Shown here piece by piece: positions 28,737 through 41,641 of a DNA stretch of 49,441 nucleotides. Positions within the stretch are counted from its first letter, which is position 1, and the number at the start of each line of letters is the position of its first letter. The notes under the pieces are model-generated. The model was not told the DNA's origin. It made no database searches and was given only the letters and a program-made list of their open reading frames with translations. This DNA is from Pseudomonadota bacterium (lineage in GTDB: Bacteria; Pseudomonadota; Gammaproteobacteria; Burkholderiales; SG8-39). Position numbers and translations under genes: made by a program. The stretch lies in assembly GCA_021811085.1 (NCBI GenBank), contig JAJZPQ010000006.1, positions 68,914-118,354 on the forward strand, given 5' to 3'.

Positions 28737-31100
28737 ATGCAAATCGGCCCTGAAACGCTGCGCGACATTGTCGATCGGCCGTTAAGCCAGTCCGAAGTCG
28801 AAGGGCTGCTGCGCGGCTTGGACGAGGCTGCAAAGGCGCAGTTGTTCTTGCGCATGGCCGAACTCGTGCGGCGCAATGCGGCGGTCGCCGACATCGCCAA
28901 TCGCGTATCCGACAGCCTGTCGCTCGACGTGCTGTTCCCGCGCCTGATGGAAGTAGTCAGCAGTACGCTCAACGCCGATCGCAGTTCTCTGTTCCTGTAC
29001 GATGCCGAGACCCGGGAACTGTACTCGCGCGTGATGCAGGGCAATGCGATCGGAGAAGTTCGCTTTCCGAGCACGCTCGGCATCGCCGGTTCGGTATTTA
29101 CCAAGGGCGAGGCGGAAATCATCACGGCGGATGCGTACGACAACAAGCGCTTCAACCAGGAGGTCGACCGGCGCACGGGATACCGCACCCGGAACATCCT
29201 GTGCGTGCCGATCCGCAACAAGAACCGCGATGTGATCGGCGTCACCCAGGTGCTGAACAAGAACGTCGGCGATTTCGACGCCGAGGATCAGCGCCTGCTC
29301 GAGGGCTTGTCGCAGCAAGCCGCCGCCGCGCTCGAAAATGCGCGTCTGTTCGAGAAAGTCGAGCGCCAACAGCGTGAAGAGGCAATGCTGCTCGAGGTTG
29401 TCAGCTCGATCGTTTCCGAAATCCGCCTCGAACCATTGCTCGCGAAAATTCTGGCGGCCGCAACGCAGCTGCTGGAGTCGGATCGCGGCGCGCTGTTCCT
29501 GTACGACCCCAAGCGCAATGAATTGTTCTCGCATGTGGCCGGGGGCATCGACAGTGCACAGATCCGCTTCCCCGCCAATGCCGGCATTGCCGGGGAGTGC
29601 TTCAGCACGGGTAAGGTCATCAATATTCTGGATGCATACAAGGACGCGCGCTTCAACCAGGAAATCGACCGGCGCACCGGCTATCGCACGCGCAATATGC
29701 TGTGCATGCCCATCGTGGTCAAAGGGGCGCGCGTCATCGGTGTGATGGAAATCCTCAATCGCAAGCTCGGCGCCTTCGGTGCCGCCGACGAGCGGCGCCT
29801 GCACGCGTTCTGCGCCGAAGCGGCGGTGGCGATCGAGAACGCGCAGTTGTTCGAGGAAATCAACGCTGAGCGCAATTACAACGAGTCGATTCTGCGCAGC
29901 ATGAGCAATGCCGTGCTCACGCTCGATGCCGACGGTGTTCTGCGCAAGGTAAATGAATCGGCGACGCGCATCCTGCATCGAGGTGCGCGCGAACTGGTCG
30001 GGCGCGCCCTGAGCGAGCTTTTCGTCGGCCGCAATGCCTGGGTGGCGCGCAGCCTGGACAAAGTGCGCGCTGCGGGCAAGACCGATATCACCGTGGACAC
30101 CGACCTATACGTCAACCGTGCCCAGGTCGTGTCGGTCGATCTCACCACCGTGCCGCTGCTGAGCATGAGTGACGAGCCGATCGGCTACATGCTGATGATG
30201 GAGGACATCACACGCGAGAAGCGCCTGCGCAACACCTTATCGCGCTATATGAGCAAAGCGGTAATGGACCAGCTGCTCGAAAGCGGTGACAACGTGCTCG
30301 GCGGCATCAGCCGCGAGGTGAGCGTGCTGTTCTCCGACATCCGCGGCTTCACTTCGATCTCCGAGCGCCTCGGCGCTCAGGAAACCGTGGCCCTGCTCAA
30401 TGAGTACTTTACCGACATGGTGGATATCGTTTTCGCGCACCAGGGCGTGCTCGACAAGTACATGGGCGACATGATCATGGCGGTGTTCGGCTCGGTACTG
30501 CAGCACGACGATGATCCGGACAATGCGGTAGCCGTAGGCAACCAGATGATGGCGGGCCTGCGCGAGTTGAACGGCCGGCTGGCGGCGCGCGGGCGCGACG
30601 CCATCAGAATCGGCGTGGGCATCAGCACCGGCCAGGTGGTGGCCGGCAATATCGGTTCGCCCAAGCGGCTGGAATATACGGTGATCGGCAATCGCGTGAA
30701 CATCGCTCACCGGTTGGAGGACGCAAACAAGTTTTACGGCACTTCGGTGCTGATTTGCAGTCAAACCTACGAGCGCTTGAAGGAGCCTACGCCGGTGCGA
30801 GAAATCGACCTGATCCGCGTGCGCGGCATGGAGACGCCGGTCGCGATCTACGAGGCATTAGGCCATCACACCGAGGAATCCTTTCCGCACCGGGATGCCG
30901 TGGTGGGTGCCTTCAACCGGGGCGTGGCGCGCTATCGCAGGCGCGAGTGGAACGGTGCCGCGCGCTGTTTCAGGGATGCGCTCGCGGCCAATCCGCAGGA
31001 TGGACCCTCGCGCGTCTACCTCGATCGCTGTGAGATTTTCCGCAGTACGCCGCCGGCTGCGAATTGGGACGGCGTGTCGTCAGTTCAGAGCAAATATTGA
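28737..31100 (+). CDS. Class III adenylate cyclase with tandem GAF and PAS domains
   Basis: A 787-residue cytosolic sensor-cyclase. Two GAF domains (about 60-205 and 225-372) share the block RFNQE(V/I)DRRTGYRTRN and carry near-complete NKFDE-type motifs (Asn174-Lys175-Phe180-Asp184; Asn341-Phe347-Asp351-Glu352), as in cyclic-nucleotide-binding GAFs of CyaB1-like cyclases. A PAS domain follows (380-495), then a class III catalytic domain (525-710). The latter shows metal ligands Asp534 (LFSDIRGF) and Asp578 (KYMGDMIM), the adenine-selecting pair Lys574/Thr648 (EYTVIG), and transition-state Asn654/Arg659 (VNIAHRL). A TPR-like C-terminal tail ends the protein. It should make cAMP, with feedback through the GAF domains. 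The HD-GYP gene begins one base after its stop codon. Confidence 0.93.
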   Translation: MQIGPETLRDIVDRPLSQSEVEGLLRGLDEAAKAQLFLRMAELVRRNAAVADIANRVSDSLSLDVLFPRLMEVVSSTLNADRSSLFLYDAETRELYSRVMQGNAIGEVRFPSTLGIAGSVFTKGEAEIITADAYDNKRFNQEVDRRTGYRTRNILCVPIRNKNRDVIGVTQVLNKNVGDFDAEDQRLLEGLSQQAAAALENARLFEKVERQQREEAMLLEVVSSIVSEIRLEPLLAKILAAATQLLESDRGALFLYDPKRNELFSHVAGGIDSAQIRFPANAGIAGECFSTGKVINILDAYKDARFNQEIDRRTGYRTRNMLCMPIVVKGARVIGVMEILNRKLGAFGAADERRLHAFCAEAAVAIENAQLFEEINAERNYNESILRSMSNAVLTLDADGVLRKVNESATRILHRGARELVGRALSELFVGRNAWVARSLDKVRAAGKTDITVDTDLYVNRAQVVSVDLTTVPLLSMSDEPIGYMLMMEDITREKRLRNTLSRYMSKAVMDQLLESGDNVLGGISREVSVLFSDIRGFTSISERLGAQETVALLNEYFTDMVDIVFAHQGVLDKYMGDMIMAVFGSVLQHDDDPDNAVAVGNQMMAGLRELNGRLAARGRDAIRIGVGISTGQVVAGNIGSPKRLEYTVIGNRVNIAHRLEDANKFYGTSVLICSQTYERLKEPTPVREIDLIRVRGMETPVAIYEALGHHTEESFPHRDAVVGAFNRGVARYRRREWNGAARCFRDALAANPQDGPSRVYLDRCEIFRSTPPAANWDGVSSVQSKY

Positions 31101-31101
31101 G

Positions 31102-32301
31102 ATGGAATTAAAGCAAATACCGGTCGACGAGCTGGAGCTCGGCATGTACGTGTCCAAGCTCGATCGTCCCTGGACCGAAACGCCGTTCGTATTTCAGGGC
31201 TTCATCCTGAGGAGCCAGAAGCAGATCGACGTGATGAAGAAGTATTGCGCGCATGTGTTCGTCGACCCGGAGAAGGAGGATCGGTCCGAGATCGAGGGGC
31301 ACGCCGGCGGCACGGCGGCGAGCATCCGCGGCACCACGGTGTACAAGGAGGTCGCGAGCCTGGACGCCGAGCTGCCGCGGGCGCGCAGCGCGATCGTCGA
31401 GACGGCGACGGTGCTGAGGCAGATCGGCCGCGACGTGCAGATCGGGCACGCTGTCGACGGCGCCAAAGTGAAGCAGGCGGCCTCCGACATAACCGAAAGC
31501 GTGGTGCGCAATCCGGATGCGGCGACTTTGCTGGTGCAGCTGCAGGAGAAAAGCGGCGAAACTTTCAATCGCGCGATCCACGTGTCGGTGATGATGAGCA
31601 TTTTCGGCCGCTTTCTGCAGCTGCCGCGCGAGAGCATCGAGCAGCTCGGCCTGCTCGGCCTGCTGCAGGACGCGGGCAAGCTCAAGCTGCCGACCGCGCT
31701 GTTGGAAAAGCGCGAACCGCTGACCGCGGAGGAAATGGCCCTGTATCAGACACATGTCGACCACTCGGTCGAAATCCTGACCAAGACCCCCGGTCTGCCG
31801 AACGAGCTGCCGGGGCTCGCGTCTCTGCATCACGAGCATTTCGACGGCTCCGGCTATCCGCGCGGATTGCGCGGTGTCGCGATTGCGCTACCAGGGATGA
31901 TCGCCGCGATCGTGGACGCATTCGACATGCTGGTGGCGCCGCCGCCGCAGGGAAAGCACATGTCGCCCTCGAACGCGCTCAACGTCATCTATAAAGGGCG
32001 CGGCACCCAGTTCCAGCCTGCCCTGGTCGAGCAGTTCATTCAATGCATCGGCATATATCCGGTGGGCAGCGCAGTCGAACTGAACACCGGGGAAGTCGGG
32101 ATCGTAATCGCGCAAAACCCCTTGCGCCGGCTGCAGCCGCGCGTCATGGTAGTCAAGGATGCGAAGGGCAACGAGAATCGGCCGTACAAGATGCTCGACC
32201 TGGCGAAAGAGCCCAAGGCCACGCCGGACGAGATTTACCGGATCCGGCACACGCTGAAGTACGATGCGATCAAGGTCGATCCGAGGGAACTGTTTCTTTG
32301 A
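31102..32301 (+). CDS. HD-GYP domain protein with altered HD motif (DUF3391-HD-GYP)
   Basis: A 399-residue protein. The N-terminal DUF3391-like part (KQIPVDELELGMYVSKLDRPW) precedes an HD-GYP domain at about 145-330. HD-GYP enzymes cut c-di-GMP with a metal centre. Here His160, His218, His221, the HHEHFDGSGYP segment (243-253) and the VDAFD acid pair are kept, but the name-giving HD is Gln189-Asp190 (GLLQDAGK), and the usual TSxRPYR-like loop reads APPPQGKH. Loss of that His should impair metal binding, so a receptor or regulatory role is plausible. It starts at ATG 31102, one base after the cyclase stop, and overlaps the next gene by four bases. Confidence 0.9.
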   Translation: MELKQIPVDELELGMYVSKLDRPWTETPFVFQGFILRSQKQIDVMKKYCAHVFVDPEKEDRSEIEGHAGGTAASIRGTTVYKEVASLDAELPRARSAIVETATVLRQIGRDVQIGHAVDGAKVKQAASDITESVVRNPDAATLLVQLQEKSGETFNRAIHVSVMMSIFGRFLQLPRESIEQLGLLGLLQDAGKLKLPTALLEKREPLTAEEMALYQTHVDHSVEILTKTPGLPNELPGLASLHHEHFDGSGYPRGLRGVAIALPGMIAAIVDAFDMLVAPPPQGKHMSPSNALNVIYKGRGTQFQPALVEQFIQCIGIYPVGSAVELNTGEVGIVIAQNPLRRLQPRVMVVKDAKGNENRPYKMLDLAKEPKATPDEIYRIRHTLKYDAIKVDPRELFL

Positions 32302-33596
32302 GTCCGAACGGTCCGGCCGCGCAGGTCGCGTCTGGCGCGCCGGCCGCCGCAGCGGAAGTGCCGTTCCTGGAGCGCCTGCGCAGCGGCATCGAACAACGGC
32401 GCGCAGACGGGCAAAGCCTAGGCCTGCTGCTGGTGGATTGCGGCGTAATCGGCCGCATCGACGCCCTGTGGGGCTACCACATCGGCGACGCGGTACGCGC
32501 GCGGATACTGGCGAGCCTGCGTGCCGAGGTGTTGCGGCCCGACGATTTTGCCGCAGAATTCGGACGTGACGAGCTGGCCTGCGTGCTTTCGGTGGTGGAG
32601 GGGGAGCAATTGGCGCGGCTCGCAGCGGAGAAATCCCTGCGCACCATGAACGTGCCGCTGTTTCTGGGGGACGAGGAGATCTTCTCTTCGCCCGCGGTGG
32701 GGATCGCGCTGTTTCCGCAAACGGCGGACGATGCCGAGTCCTTGCTGCGCCAGGCCAAGAGCGCCTGCGTGCTGGCGCGTAACCTGCGCGGCCGCGTTGC
32801 GCTGTACGAAGAAGGGCAGATCTCCGGTGTGTCGCAGCTGGTCGAGGAGAGCCGTCTGCGCACGGCAATCGCGGAAGACGCGCTGGAGCTGGCGTTTCAG
32901 CCTCAATTCGACCTGCGCTTCGGGCAAATCATGGGTATGGAAGCGATGCTGCGCTGGCGCGACGGCAAGCGCGAGCTGGTGCCGATGCGTGAGGCGATCG
33001 CGGCCGCAGAGCAGGGCGGCATGGTCGCCAAGCTGATCTCGTCGCTGTTGAACCGGGCGCTGCGCAACTGTTCCGAATTCCGGCAGCGCGCCGGATTGGA
33101 TTTGCGCATTGCCATCAATTTTCCGGCGCGCACTCTGCTGGAGCCGGAGCTTCCCGAACTGGTCGAGCGCGCGCTGCGCACCTGGTCGCTGCGCCCGGGC
33201 AGGCTGATGCTCGAAATTGGGGATCTTTCGGCACTGCCGGCGCAGGCGCAAGCGCAGGCGGCGCTCCTGCGCCTGCACCAGACCGGTGTAAAGCTGTCGC
33301 TCGACGATGCGCGCGCACCGCTGTCGTCCCTGTTCTGGCTTGCCACCCAGCCGTTTCACGAACTCAAGATCGACCTGTCCATTGCCCAGGACTGGAGCGT
33401 ACAGGCGCAATCCGAAGGCGTGCTGCGCGCGCTGATCGGACTGGTGCATCAGCTCAAGCTCGATGTGATCGCCCTCGGCGTTGCCGACGATGCGGCCGCC
33501 GCGCGCTTGTTGGAACTGGGCTGCGACTTCATCCAGGCCGATTTCAAGGGCCCTGCCGTCGGTGCGGAGGAGTTCGTCGCCCGTTTCGCCGGCTGA
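32298..33596 (+). CDS. Degenerate GGDEF-EAL protein, probable c-di-GMP receptor/regulator
   Basis: A 432-residue protein from TTG 32298, which overlaps the HD-GYP stop (TTGA). A GGDEF-fold domain (about 25-170) has FGRDEL in place of GGDEF (88-93), so cyclase activity is unlikely. An EAL-fold domain (185-430) has EAM at 215-217 (MEAMLRW), keeps Asn274 and the DD pair near 336, but replaces the catalytic AEGVE by ALGVA (392-396) and the QGY-type motif by QAD (413-415). Both activities are therefore probably lost, and nucleotide binding or protein contact is the likely role. It is third in the cAMP/c-di-GMP signalling operon and is followed by a terminator hairpin. Confidence 0.9.
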   Translation: MSPNGPAAQVASGAPAAAAEVPFLERLRSGIEQRRADGQSLGLLLVDCGVIGRIDALWGYHIGDAVRARILASLRAEVLRPDDFAAEFGRDELACVLSVVEGEQLARLAAEKSLRTMNVPLFLGDEEIFSSPAVGIALFPQTADDAESLLRQAKSACVLARNLRGRVALYEEGQISGVSQLVEESRLRTAIAEDALELAFQPQFDLRFGQIMGMEAMLRWRDGKRELVPMREAIAAAEQGGMVAKLISSLLNRALRNCSEFRQRAGLDLRIAINFPARTLLEPELPELVERALRTWSLRPGRLMLEIGDLSALPAQAQAQAALLRLHQTGVKLSLDDARAPLSSLFWLATQPFHELKIDLSIAQDWSVQAQSEGVLRALIGLVHQLKLDVIALGVADDAAAARLLELGCDFIQADFKGPAVGAEEFVARFAG

Positions 33597-33694
33597 CGCA
33601 GCCTTGCGGGGAAGCCAAGCCCGCAGCACCTAGCTCGCGCAGAGCTTGCGCGGCTTATCGCCCGGACCATGGCGCGCTGCGCCGCGCTTCACTG

Positions 33695-33719
33695 CCATGC
33701 GGCTCCCGCATGGTTTCTC
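33695..33719 (+). terminator. Rho-independent terminator after the signalling operon
   Basis: CCATGCGG-CTC-CCGCATGG forms a perfect eight-pair stem with a three-base loop (33695-33713), followed by TTTCTCT. It lies about 100 bases after the GGDEF-EAL stop and 115 bases before hypA, so it separates signalling and hydrogenase transcription units. Confidence 0.65.
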
Positions 33720-39835: not shown

Positions 39836-41641
39836 ATGAGTGCAATCCCGGACCCGGTCGCTGCGGCAGTCGCCGCGACCGTCGCGCGCCATCGCCAGGA
39901 TCCGCATTACATCCTGCAGATGCTGCGCGAGATACAGGAAGCCTGCGACTGGATCGCGCCCGAGGCGATCGACCGCTTGCAGCAGGCGCTCGGCCTGCCG
40001 CGGACCAAAGTCGAAGGCGTGGCGGGGTTCTATTCGTTTCTGTACACCAAGCCGCGCGGGCGCTACCGCGTCCTGTTCAGCGACAACATCACCGATCGCA
40101 TGCTCGGCAACATGGAGTTGCTGCGGCGCATGTGCGAACAGCTGTGGATCGAGCGCGGCAAGACCTCGGAGGACGGCCTGGTGAGCGTGGACACCACCTC
40201 CTGTACCGGCATGTGCGACCAGGGACCGGCGCTGCTGGTCAACAATTACGCCATCACCCGCGTCGACGCGCCGCGCGTGGACGCGATTTGCGAGCTGATC
40301 CGGGCCCAGGTGGAGCTCGCCGCCTGGCCGCGCGAATACTTTCGCGTTGACGATCAGGTCCGGCGCAAGGATGTGCTGCTCGGCGCCGCGCTGGCGCCCG
40401 GCGAAGCGCTCGCGGCAGGATGCGCGCGCGGGGCGGAGGCGCTGCTGGCGGAACTGAAGCTGTCGAAGCTGCGCGGACGCGGCGGTGCCGGCTTTTCCAC
40501 CGGCCTCAAATGGGAAGCCTGCCGCAACGCGGCCGGCAGCGAGCACTACGTGGTATGCAATGCCGATGAGGGCGAACCGGGCACGTTCAAGGACCGCGTC
40601 CTGCTCAGCGCGCATGCGGACCTGGTGTTCGAGGGCATGAGCTTGTGCGCGCTGGCGCTGGGCGCGAGGCGGGGCATGCTGTATCTGCGCGGGGAATACC
40701 GCTATATGCTCGATCAACTGAACGCGGTGCTCGAGCGCCGACGGCAGGCCGGGCTGTTGGGCATCGGCATCCTCGGGCGCGAGGGTTTCGATTTCGACAT
40801 CGAAATCCATCTCGGTGCGGGCGCCTACATCTGCGGCGAGGAATCGGCGCTGATCGAGTCGCTCGAAGGCAAGCGCGGCACGCCGCGTAACCGGCCGCCG
40901 TTTCCGGTGACCCACGGCTATCTGGATCAGCCGACGGTGGTGAACAATGTCGAGACCTTTGCGGCGTCCTGCCTCGTTGCGCTGCGCGGCGGCGCCTGGT
41001 ATGCCGGAATCGGCACCAGCGCCTCGGCCGGGACCAAGATCCTGAGCGTCTCCGGCGACTGCGCCCGGCCCGGATTGTACGAATACCCGTACGGCGTGAG
41101 CGTGAGCGAGGTACTTGCGGCCTGCGGCGCCGTTGACGTGCAGGCGGTGCAGGTCAGCGGCCCGTCCGGCGTATGCCTCGCGGCGGGGGAATTCGGGCGC
41201 CGCATCGCGTTCGAGGACATTCCCACCGCGGGCGCCTTCATGGTATTCGACCAGCGTCGCGACATGTTCGCGGTCGCGCGCAACTTCGTCCACTTCTTCG
41301 CGCACGAAAGCTGCGGCTTTTGCACGCCCTGCCGCGTCGGCACCTCCTTGTTGCGCAATCTAATGGACAAACTCAACAACGGCCATGGCTCGCCCTACGA
41401 TTTCGCCGAAATCGAAAAGTTGAACCGCATCCTGCAGGCCATGAGCCATTGCGGGCTGGGCCACTCGGCCTGCAATCCGGTGCTCGACACCATCGCCAAA
41501 TTCCGCCCGGCCTACGAGCGGCGCCTGCAGCAGAAGGAATTCGAACCCGCATTCGACCTCGATTGGGCGTTGGAACCGGCGCGGCAGATGACCGGCCGCG
41601 ACGATGCGGGGGCGCATATCGGTAGCGTGGAGAAATCATGA
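39836..41641 (+). CDS. hoxF: NAD-reducing hydrogenase diaphorase subunit HoxF
   Basis: A 601-residue flavoprotein that exchanges electrons with NAD. An N-terminal NuoE-like domain (1-145) is fused to a NuoF-like domain: GRGGAGFSTGLKW (FMN), NADEGEPGTFKDR, GAGAYICGEESALIESLEGKR (NADH), and the [4Fe-4S] cysteines ESCGFCTPCRVG plus the later CGLGHSAC. In the NuoE-like part only the second cysteine pair (Cys123, Cys127 in TSCTGMCDQG) remains; the place of the first pair reads LFSDNITDRM, so that [2Fe-2S] cluster is probably missing, as in other one-chain HoxF proteins. No separate hoxE exists. The stop overlaps hoxU (ATGA). Confidence 0.95.
   Translation: MSAIPDPVAAAVAATVARHRQDPHYILQMLREIQEACDWIAPEAIDRLQQALGLPRTKVEGVAGFYSFLYTKPRGRYRVLFSDNITDRMLGNMELLRRMCEQLWIERGKTSEDGLVSVDTTSCTGMCDQGPALLVNNYAITRVDAPRVDAICELIRAQVELAAWPREYFRVDDQVRRKDVLLGAALAPGEALAAGCARGAEALLAELKLSKLRGRGGAGFSTGLKWEACRNAAGSEHYVVCNADEGEPGTFKDRVLLSAHADLVFEGMSLCALALGARRGMLYLRGEYRYMLDQLNAVLERRRQAGLLGIGILGREGFDFDIEIHLGAGAYICGEESALIESLEGKRGTPRNRPPFPVTHGYLDQPTVVNNVETFAASCLVALRGGAWYAGIGTSASAGTKILSVSGDCARPGLYEYPYGVSVSEVLAACGAVDVQAVQVSGPSGVCLAAGEFGRRIAFEDIPTAGAFMVFDQRRDMFAVARNFVHFFAHESCGFCTPCRVGTSLLRNLMDKLNNGHGSPYDFAEIEKLNRILQAMSHCGLGHSACNPVLDTIAKFRPAYERRLQQKEFEPAFDLDWALEPARQMTGRDDAGAHIGSVEKS

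Follow-up and report, generated by a model that had tools for sequence, protein, structure and literature searches.

Described links between cyclic AMP (cAMP) and cyclic di-GMP (c-di-GMP) run through transcription factors, effector-effector contacts, and a fused sensor domain, with FleQ, CRP, and Bd1971 as examples in the sources available. An HD-GYP receptor (PMC13090378), cAMP-activated GAF cyclases (PMC4411481), and a cAMP-sensing EAL enzyme (PMC6717892) have already been described. The 49,441-nucleotide stretch of Pseudomonadota bacterium DNA analyzed here (assembly GCA_021811085.1, contig JAJZPQ010000006.1, positions 68,914 to 118,354; hereafter the window) carries three adjacent genes encoding a GAF-GAF-PAS class III adenylate cyclase, an HD-GYP protein with a defective metal centre, and a degenerate GGDEF-EAL protein. 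All three genes are genuine and conserved, lie close together, and evolve under purifying selection, and each product belongs to a known superfamily. No description of this trio, or of a recurrent association between a dead HD-GYP/EAL pair and cAMP genes, was found in searches of the open-access literature, and the sequence-only reading, an earlier interpretation made from the letters of the window, had likewise recognized no described system of this composition. We consider it possible, at close to an even chance, that the HD-GYP and GGDEF-EAL proteins together make up a non-catalytic receptor pair for c-di-GMP and work as an adaptor on proteins of the cAMP pathway, in this case the GAF-GAF-PAS cyclase.

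Closest Described Systems

CyaB1 and CyaB2 of Anabaena contain a PAS domain. The window cyclase resembles them in combining tandem GAF domains with a class III cyclase domain, in the NKFDE-like motifs of both GAFs (GAF-A of the window has Q for E, and GAF-B has R for K), and in the domain order GAF-GAF-PAS-cyclase, all of them features of the CyaB1/CyaB2 type. Unlike CyaB2, which is treated alone in the excerpt of PMC4411481, it is encoded directly beside a degenerate HD-GYP protein and a degenerate GGDEF-EAL protein.

Filp and LapD are c-di-GMP receptors, and degenerate GGDEF-EAL receptors have been described (PMC6637768). The third protein of the window is of the FimX/LapD type in that a degenerate GGDEF and a degenerate EAL domain, presumably forming a receptor, stand in one protein, with LapD and FimX among its fold matches. 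It differs from FimX, LapD, and Filp in keeping the EAL glutamate and the I-site while lacking the AEGVE glutamate, and in being encoded by a gene packed with an HD-GYP gene. By analogy, a precedent for an HD-GYP receptor is DvhD, which has SQ for HD and binds c-di-GMP without hydrolyzing it (PMC13090378). The window HD-GYP protein shares with it the HD-GYP fold and the loss of the HD histidine, and matches 9rbz and 9rc0 by sequence. However, DvhD combines PAS with HD-GYP, belongs to an adhesin-control operon, and has also lost the double histidine (PMC13090378), whereas the window protein keeps HH, carries DUF3391 at its N-terminus, and has a cyclase and a GGDEF-EAL protein as partners. Two further proteins are comparable in part. 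In Bd1971, cAMP and c-di-GMP meet at the EAL domain (PMC6717892), and 6hq5 is a fold match to the window GGDEF-EAL protein; Bd1971 differs in that a sensor of the cyclic nucleoside monophosphate (cNMP)-binding/CRP family is fused to an active EAL domain (PMC6717892), and Pfam gives no cNMP_binding match for any of the window trio. Bordetella PdeE also has QD in place of HD, but is a Cache-domain membrane protein for which the excerpt of PMC12805831 mentions no cyclase or EAL partner.

Catalytic Sites of the Three Proteins

Two GAF domains, a PAS domain, and Guanylate_cyc pass the Pfam cut-off in the cyclase, followed by a C-terminal tail with a weak, sub-threshold TPR-like match. The earlier claim that this enzyme retains all of its catalytic residues is borne out by D534, D578, K574, T648, N655, and R659, which are unchanged in 21 of 21 homologues. 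These comprise both metal-binding aspartates, the Lys/Thr pair presumed to select adenine, and the Asn/Arg pair, roles that we take to be those of class III adenylate cyclases, and the catalytic site is, to judge from them, intact. Here and below, residue counts refer to distinct sequences of at least 340 (HD-GYP), 380 (EAL), or 700 (cyclase) residues above bit-score limits of 140, 170, and 600, respectively, so that truncated and the most distant homologues are excluded. Relatives of the cyclase in the PDB include class III cyclase domains and the adenylate cyclase GAF pair 1ykd, presumably from Anabaena CyaB2. PycC models of the Pycsar system match through the shared cyclase domain, and the HD-GYP and GGDEF-EAL proteins, when scanned, gave no PADLOC matches; judged from these proteins of the trio, a Pycsar defence role seems unlikely.

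The second protein matches DUF3391 and HD_5 above the Pfam cut-off. Its predicted model (predicted local distance difference test score, pLDDT, 83; predicted template modelling score, pTM, 0.79) is closest to Bd1817, PmGH, PA4781, and DvhD, and it has the GYP signature together with the HD-GYP fold, with fold matches to 4mcw, 3tmb, and 9rbz. QD does replace HD, as the sequence-only reading had stated, and the loss extends further. In PmGH, the metal centre involves E185, H189, H221, D222, H250, H276, H277, and D305, together with D183; hydrolysis is essentially lost on substitution H189A or H221A and is abolished by D183A (PMC4159591). In alignment with PmGH (4mcw), H189, H221, and D183 correspond to R157, Q189, and S151 of the window protein, which thus lacks three of these residues, and the equivalents of D222, H250, H276, H277, and D305 remain in place. 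In the 88 distinct homologues compared, H never occurs in the H221 column, which holds Q in 77, L in six, M in two, and R, E, and A in one each, and the H189 column holds R in 73, H in 10, and five others; GYP, HH, H250, and D305 are invariant in all 88. Absence of c-di-GMP turnover by the HD-GYP protein is strongly predicted from these residues.

An active EAL domain carries the catalytic set E-N-E-D-D-K-E-Q and a DDFGTG loop; this set, the EAL residue numbers, and the roles of the EAL and GGDEF motifs are taken as general background. The third protein matches GGDEF and EAL above the Pfam cut-off, and no other Pfam domain passes in its 432 residues. Its predicted model (pLDDT 85, pTM 0.61) is closest to PA0575 and the GGDEF-EAL part of MorA, with Bd1971, LapD, and FimX also matching. 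The sequence-only reading had held that the GGDEF, EAL, and AEGVE sets are all missing. This is correct for GGDEF, which reads GRDEL and so departs from the GG(D/E)EF motif of diguanylate cyclases, and for AEGVE, which reads ALGVA, but the EAL set is mostly kept: the EAL glutamate is present (in MEAM), as are N, the first E of EITE, DD, K, and Q, so that the set reads ENEDDKLQ and retains seven of its eight residues. Missing from the domain are the glutamate of AEGVE, the final E of EITE, and loop 6 (DDARAP for DDFGTG). Without that AEGVE glutamate and that loop, the protein is probably dead as a phosphodiesterase. All eight residues occur in seven of 65 homologues, and E703 is kept in 16 of 65; beside the HD-GYP genes of those seven, whose neighbours are mostly unannotated, no cAMP gene was recognized immediately adjacent, a cNMP kinase lying about 1.8 kb away in one (L078). 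As far as the alignments go, the HD histidine is lost in all 88 HD-GYP rows, whereas the EAL domain has decayed only in part and to an extent that varies with lineage.

All 65 tabulated GGDEF-EAL homologues have the I-site RxxD, even though 64 of them carry R in place of the second G of GGDEF; a more distant GGDEF-EAL protein (L086), one of a separate set of 27, lacks RxxD. As a control, other GGDEF domains of the window genome and of the related genome G013 were compared (46 of 53 matches aligned, partial or split matches omitted, the window copy and its G013 ortholog excluded from the counts). RxxD occurs in 31 of 33 canonical domains and in only two of 11 non-canonical ones, so its retention in a degenerate GGDEF domain is unusual (Fisher p 4e-10, shared ancestry ignored). 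The retention fits c-di-GMP binding, or else a structural need.

A variant form of the GGDEF-EAL protein occurs in a clade whose loci are linked to a PDEase_II-like gene (L143:9196-10992, L147:1423-3219), where it has a long additional N-terminal part (about 180 residues ahead of GGDEF in L143) with no Pfam match.

Conservation of the Trio and of the Pair

The triplet, on whose conservation the sequence-only reading depended, is conserved in relatives. Among 98 genomes of the family, 52 carry the HD-GYP protein at E <= 1e-90 (53 when a contig-end fragment in G081 is counted) and 20 a cyclase ortholog, and in all 20 the cyclase gene adjoins the HD-GYP/EAL locus, lying upstream and co-directional in 12 and downstream and convergent in eight. 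One of these 20 loci, at a contig end, has the cyclase beside the EAL gene and an HD-GYP fragment; contig ends break the locus in G001, G004, G009, and G081. A second, unlinked cyclase copy exists in two of the 20 (G001 and G012). Co-occurrence of cyclase and HD-GYP within the family gives a Fisher p of 1e-6, shared ancestry being ignored. Within the genus (14 genomes), the entire trio lies on one contig in eight, is split across two contigs in G001 and G004, and is seen as cyclase and HD-GYP up to the contig end in G009; G006, which is 77% complete, has neither the pair nor a cyclase ortholog. Compared with eight relatives, the ratio of non-synonymous to synonymous substitution rates (dN/dS) is 0.10-0.14 for the cyclase, 0.05-0.12 for the HD-GYP gene, and 0.17-0.23 for the GGDEF-EAL gene.

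The HD-GYP/EAL pair is more widespread than the trio, occurring in Sulfuritalea metagenome-assembled genomes (MAGs), Sulfurisoma sediminicola, and many other betaproteobacteria. Three MAGs titled Bordetella parapertussis (L130, L142, L172) group among uncultured betaproteobacteria in the HD-GYP search and seem to be mislabelled. The rule that a cyclase ortholog is always linked to the pair holds within the family but fails outside it, among Sulfuritalea-type genomes, three of 12 of which yielded no cyclase ortholog. Two of the unlinked cases (G123, G124) have the cyclase about 18-20 kb from the pair, apparently on the same contig. In the loci examined, the neighbours of unlinked cyclases are a methyladenine glycosylase, an AMP-binding enzyme, or similar. 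Near one unlinked GAF-cyclase of Sulfuritalea (L259:10590-13209), a hemerythrin-GGDEF gene and a class III cyclase-hemerythrin gene stand side by side, forming another cAMP/c-di-GMP neighbour pair.

Recurrent Neighbourhoods With cAMP Genes

In a cyclase tree of 37 rows, the upstream group (12 rows), the convergent group (eight rows), and L147 fall apart. L147 is the single case of a downstream co-directional cyclase, in the order HD-GYP - EAL - cyclase, and in the HD-GYP tree, built by a quick method, it groups within the PDEase_II-linked clade, well away from the window protein. Unlinked Sulfuritalea-type cyclases form the sister of the upstream group (support 95/99), and L147 is sister to another unlinked cyclase (97/97). 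Linked and unlinked states require three changes on the cyclase tree, the deeper order of which is without support. From these trees, orthologous cyclases seem to have come to lie beside the pair on more than one occasion.

Other cAMP-related genes accompany this HD-GYP family in other lineages. Among the best 80 of 239 relatives scanned in named genomes, nine have a PDEase_II-like hydrolase (a 255-residue metallo-hydrolase) 40-102 bases upstream of HD-GYP; the one protein tested passes the Pfam PDEase_II cut-off with 49.9 against 23.7 bits. A Ser/Thr kinase with a cNMP-binding domain lies 96-124 bases from HD-GYP in L074, L133, L136, L137, and L149, and about 1.8 kb away in L139; the domain is recognized by Pfam in L133, L149, L074, and L137 and by similarity in L136/L075 and L139/L078. 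A further arrangement (L241:3143-6781, L245:4080-7765) has a REC-cyclase followed by a REC-Ser/Thr kinase in one gene run with a QD-type HD-GYP, the EAL gene being absent.

The kinases that stand beside a dead HD-GYP gene carry the cNMP-binding domain at the C-terminus (L133:4243-5538, L149:6579-7904, L074:8527-9825), and are possible bacterial counterparts of cyclic-nucleotide-dependent kinases. No gene fusion was found in the loci checked: the HD-GYP/EAL and EAL/cyclase fusions that a first gene caller gave for L133, L136, and L147 were rejected, the reading frames overlapping. A REC-cyclase directly upstream of HD-GYP in L090 was left uncounted, as the HD-GYP match lacks its first 155 residues and the cyclase domain seems cut short.

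Proposed Function and Alternatives

Should the HD-GYP protein and its GGDEF-EAL partner act on the cyclase as a receptor pair, c-di-GMP would bind the GGDEF-EAL protein, at the I-site, the EAL pocket, or both, without being turned over; the HD-GYP protein, with its conserved DUF3391 and dead core, would bridge the GGDEF-EAL protein and the cyclase; and the complex would raise or lower cyclase output. The tandem GAFs may also sense cAMP as feedback, as in CyaB2 (PMC4411481). That the HD-GYP protein has lost catalytic residues and that selection keeps the genes together can be read directly from the sequences; we infer binding, complex formation, and the direction from c-di-GMP to cAMP. Three grounds led us to this direction: of the three proteins, the cyclase alone has an intact active site; the partners that recur resemble cAMP enzymes or readers; and Pfam gave no cAMP-binding domain in the pair. 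Since such neighbourhoods seem to have been built more than once in related bacteria, the pair probably lets one messenger control the other. If true, cAMP and c-di-GMP would meet directly at the protein level, at a conserved receptor pair of two pseudo-enzymes seated on an adenylate cyclase, and DUF3391/HD-GYP proteins without histidines, which annotation pipelines are expected to call phosphodiesterases by default, would gain a function. The sequence-only reading had proposed one circuit integrating cAMP made by the first protein with c-di-GMP bound by the other two, which is partly supported: the repeated, differently arranged association with cAMP genes speaks for it, but c-di-GMP binding by the HD-GYP protein is doubtful. 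Its suggestion that neither partner turns over c-di-GMP agrees with the strong prediction for the HD-GYP protein and is likely to hold for the EAL protein, as judged from their residues. A wider version, which we regard as possible but rather unlikely, is that the dead HD-GYP and degenerate GGDEF-EAL proteins are a general c-di-GMP-to-cAMP adaptor of betaproteobacteria, working at the protein level without transcription or c-di-GMP turnover and with different partners per lineage; the partners proposed are a GAF-cyclase, a REC-cyclase, a cAMP phosphodiesterase, and a cAMP-dependent kinase.

Several observations weigh against a receptor pair acting on cAMP proteins. The doubt about c-di-GMP binding by the window HD-GYP protein stems from the loss of the substrate-contact residues equivalent to R314 and K317, which are P and G there and mostly P and G in its clade; as the EAL-pocket N is, in addition, K or R in 36 of 65 homologues, c-di-GMP binding is uncertain, and the RxxD motif is near-universal among canonical GGDEF domains too. 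Two genus members (G007, G010) have the pair without a cyclase ortholog, and the cyclase ortholog is unlinked in nine of 12 Sulfuritalea-type genomes, so linkage is not obligatory. The trees are also compatible with what may have been a single old linkage followed by several losses and moves. The PDEase_II-like protein is best matched in NCBIfam by RNase Z-like models, none reaching its cut-off (three of three tested), and its PDB matches are mixed. No cAMP neighbour was recognized for 54 of the 88 HD-GYP homologues (55 without one on the HD-GYP tree, minus L074, which has the cNMP kinase), not all neighbours being annotated. Finally, the window genome has a second HD-GYP/cyclase pair (L249:4504-6812, G000:C142), in which a REC-HD-GYP gene with intact HD and HHE motifs is followed 122 bases on by a REC-class III cyclase gene, so such a neighbourhood is not unique to the dead family.

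The main rival of a pair regulating the cyclase is that the two act side by side on a shared target, such as pilus, flagellum, or matrix machinery, the cyclase giving local cAMP and the pair reading c-di-GMP with no regulation of the cyclase by the pair. Retention of the pair in several lineages where the cyclase is unlinked or absent would fit this, as would the cNMP-binding kinase adjoining the pair elsewhere and the 23 cNMP-binding domain matches in the window genome (19 over the cut-off), which are possible cAMP readers. However, no conserved output gene was seen beside the pair, whose neighbours vary by lineage and are in many cases unannotated, and it is the cyclase itself that is found beside the pair in several arrangements; we hold this explanation to be unlikely. 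The view that nothing but a convenient operon unites the genes, which would then have no joint function, draws on the same unlinked cyclases, on the pair without cyclase in G007 and G010, and on the second HD-GYP/cyclase pair of the window genome, yet must contend with the 20 of 20 linkage in the family and with three arrangements that occupy separate places in the cyclase tree. With 10 class III cyclases (and nine HD_5 proteins) in the 4.48 Mb window genome, adjacency of one of them to a given gene would be expected at about 0.5% by our own estimate, and this explanation is very improbable.

A trio in which one of the apparently dead proteins still hydrolyzes a cyclic nucleotide, either c-di-GMP or, for example, cyclic GMP-AMP (cGAMP) or cAMP, would be an ordinary make-and-break cassette. 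The seven of eight catalytic-set residues in the EAL protein, the seven homologues with all eight, and the five metal-centre residues that the HD-GYP protein retains would allow for this. RpfG is an active phosphodiesterase. It also lacks H189 (PMC4159591). Nevertheless, H189, H221, and D183, each needed for PmGH activity in the same source, are all lost in the window protein, and E703 is retained by only a minority of the EAL homologues, so that a hydrolyzing member appears improbable.

Gene Layout and Flanking Genes

The gap and overlap that the sequence-only reading had given for the three genes are confirmed from the sequence (Table 1). Most relatives with an upstream cyclase have the same spacing between cyclase and HD-GYP, others having 4, 12, or 135 bases (in this tally some genomes appear twice), and the overlap of HD-GYP and EAL genes recurs in 47 of 72 distinct pairs. 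The terminator said to close the operon is weak: the single candidate 3′ of the GGDEF-EAL gene was rejected, as the consensus scan gave four terminator-like sites in the region against 5.4 +/- 2.7 in shuffled sequences.

Table 1. Positions of the three genes and associated features in the window.
Feature	Position	Strand	Remarks
Adenylate cyclase gene	28737-31100	+	787 amino acids; GAF-GAF-PAS-class III cyclase
Cyclase/HD-GYP gap	31101	+	1 base, from sequence
DUF3391 + HD-GYP gene	31102-32301	+	399 amino acids; defective metal centre
HD-GYP/GGDEF-EAL overlap	32298-32301	+	4 bases, TTGA, from sequence
Degenerate GGDEF-EAL gene	32298-33596	+	432 amino acids; TTG start at 32298
Terminator-like hairpin 3′ of GGDEF-EAL gene	33694-33714	+	consensus scan only

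The flanking genes do not look like part of the module. On the 5′ side lie genes for a glutamate-cysteine ligase, a pyridine nucleotide-disulfide oxidoreductase, and a protein whose outer-membrane matches all fall below threshold; on the 3′ side, hyp genes and hydrogenase genes follow. Farther along, at 39836-41641, NuoE-like and NuoF-like parts stand in a single open reading frame of 601 residues (hydrogenase diaphorase, HoxE/HoxF type).

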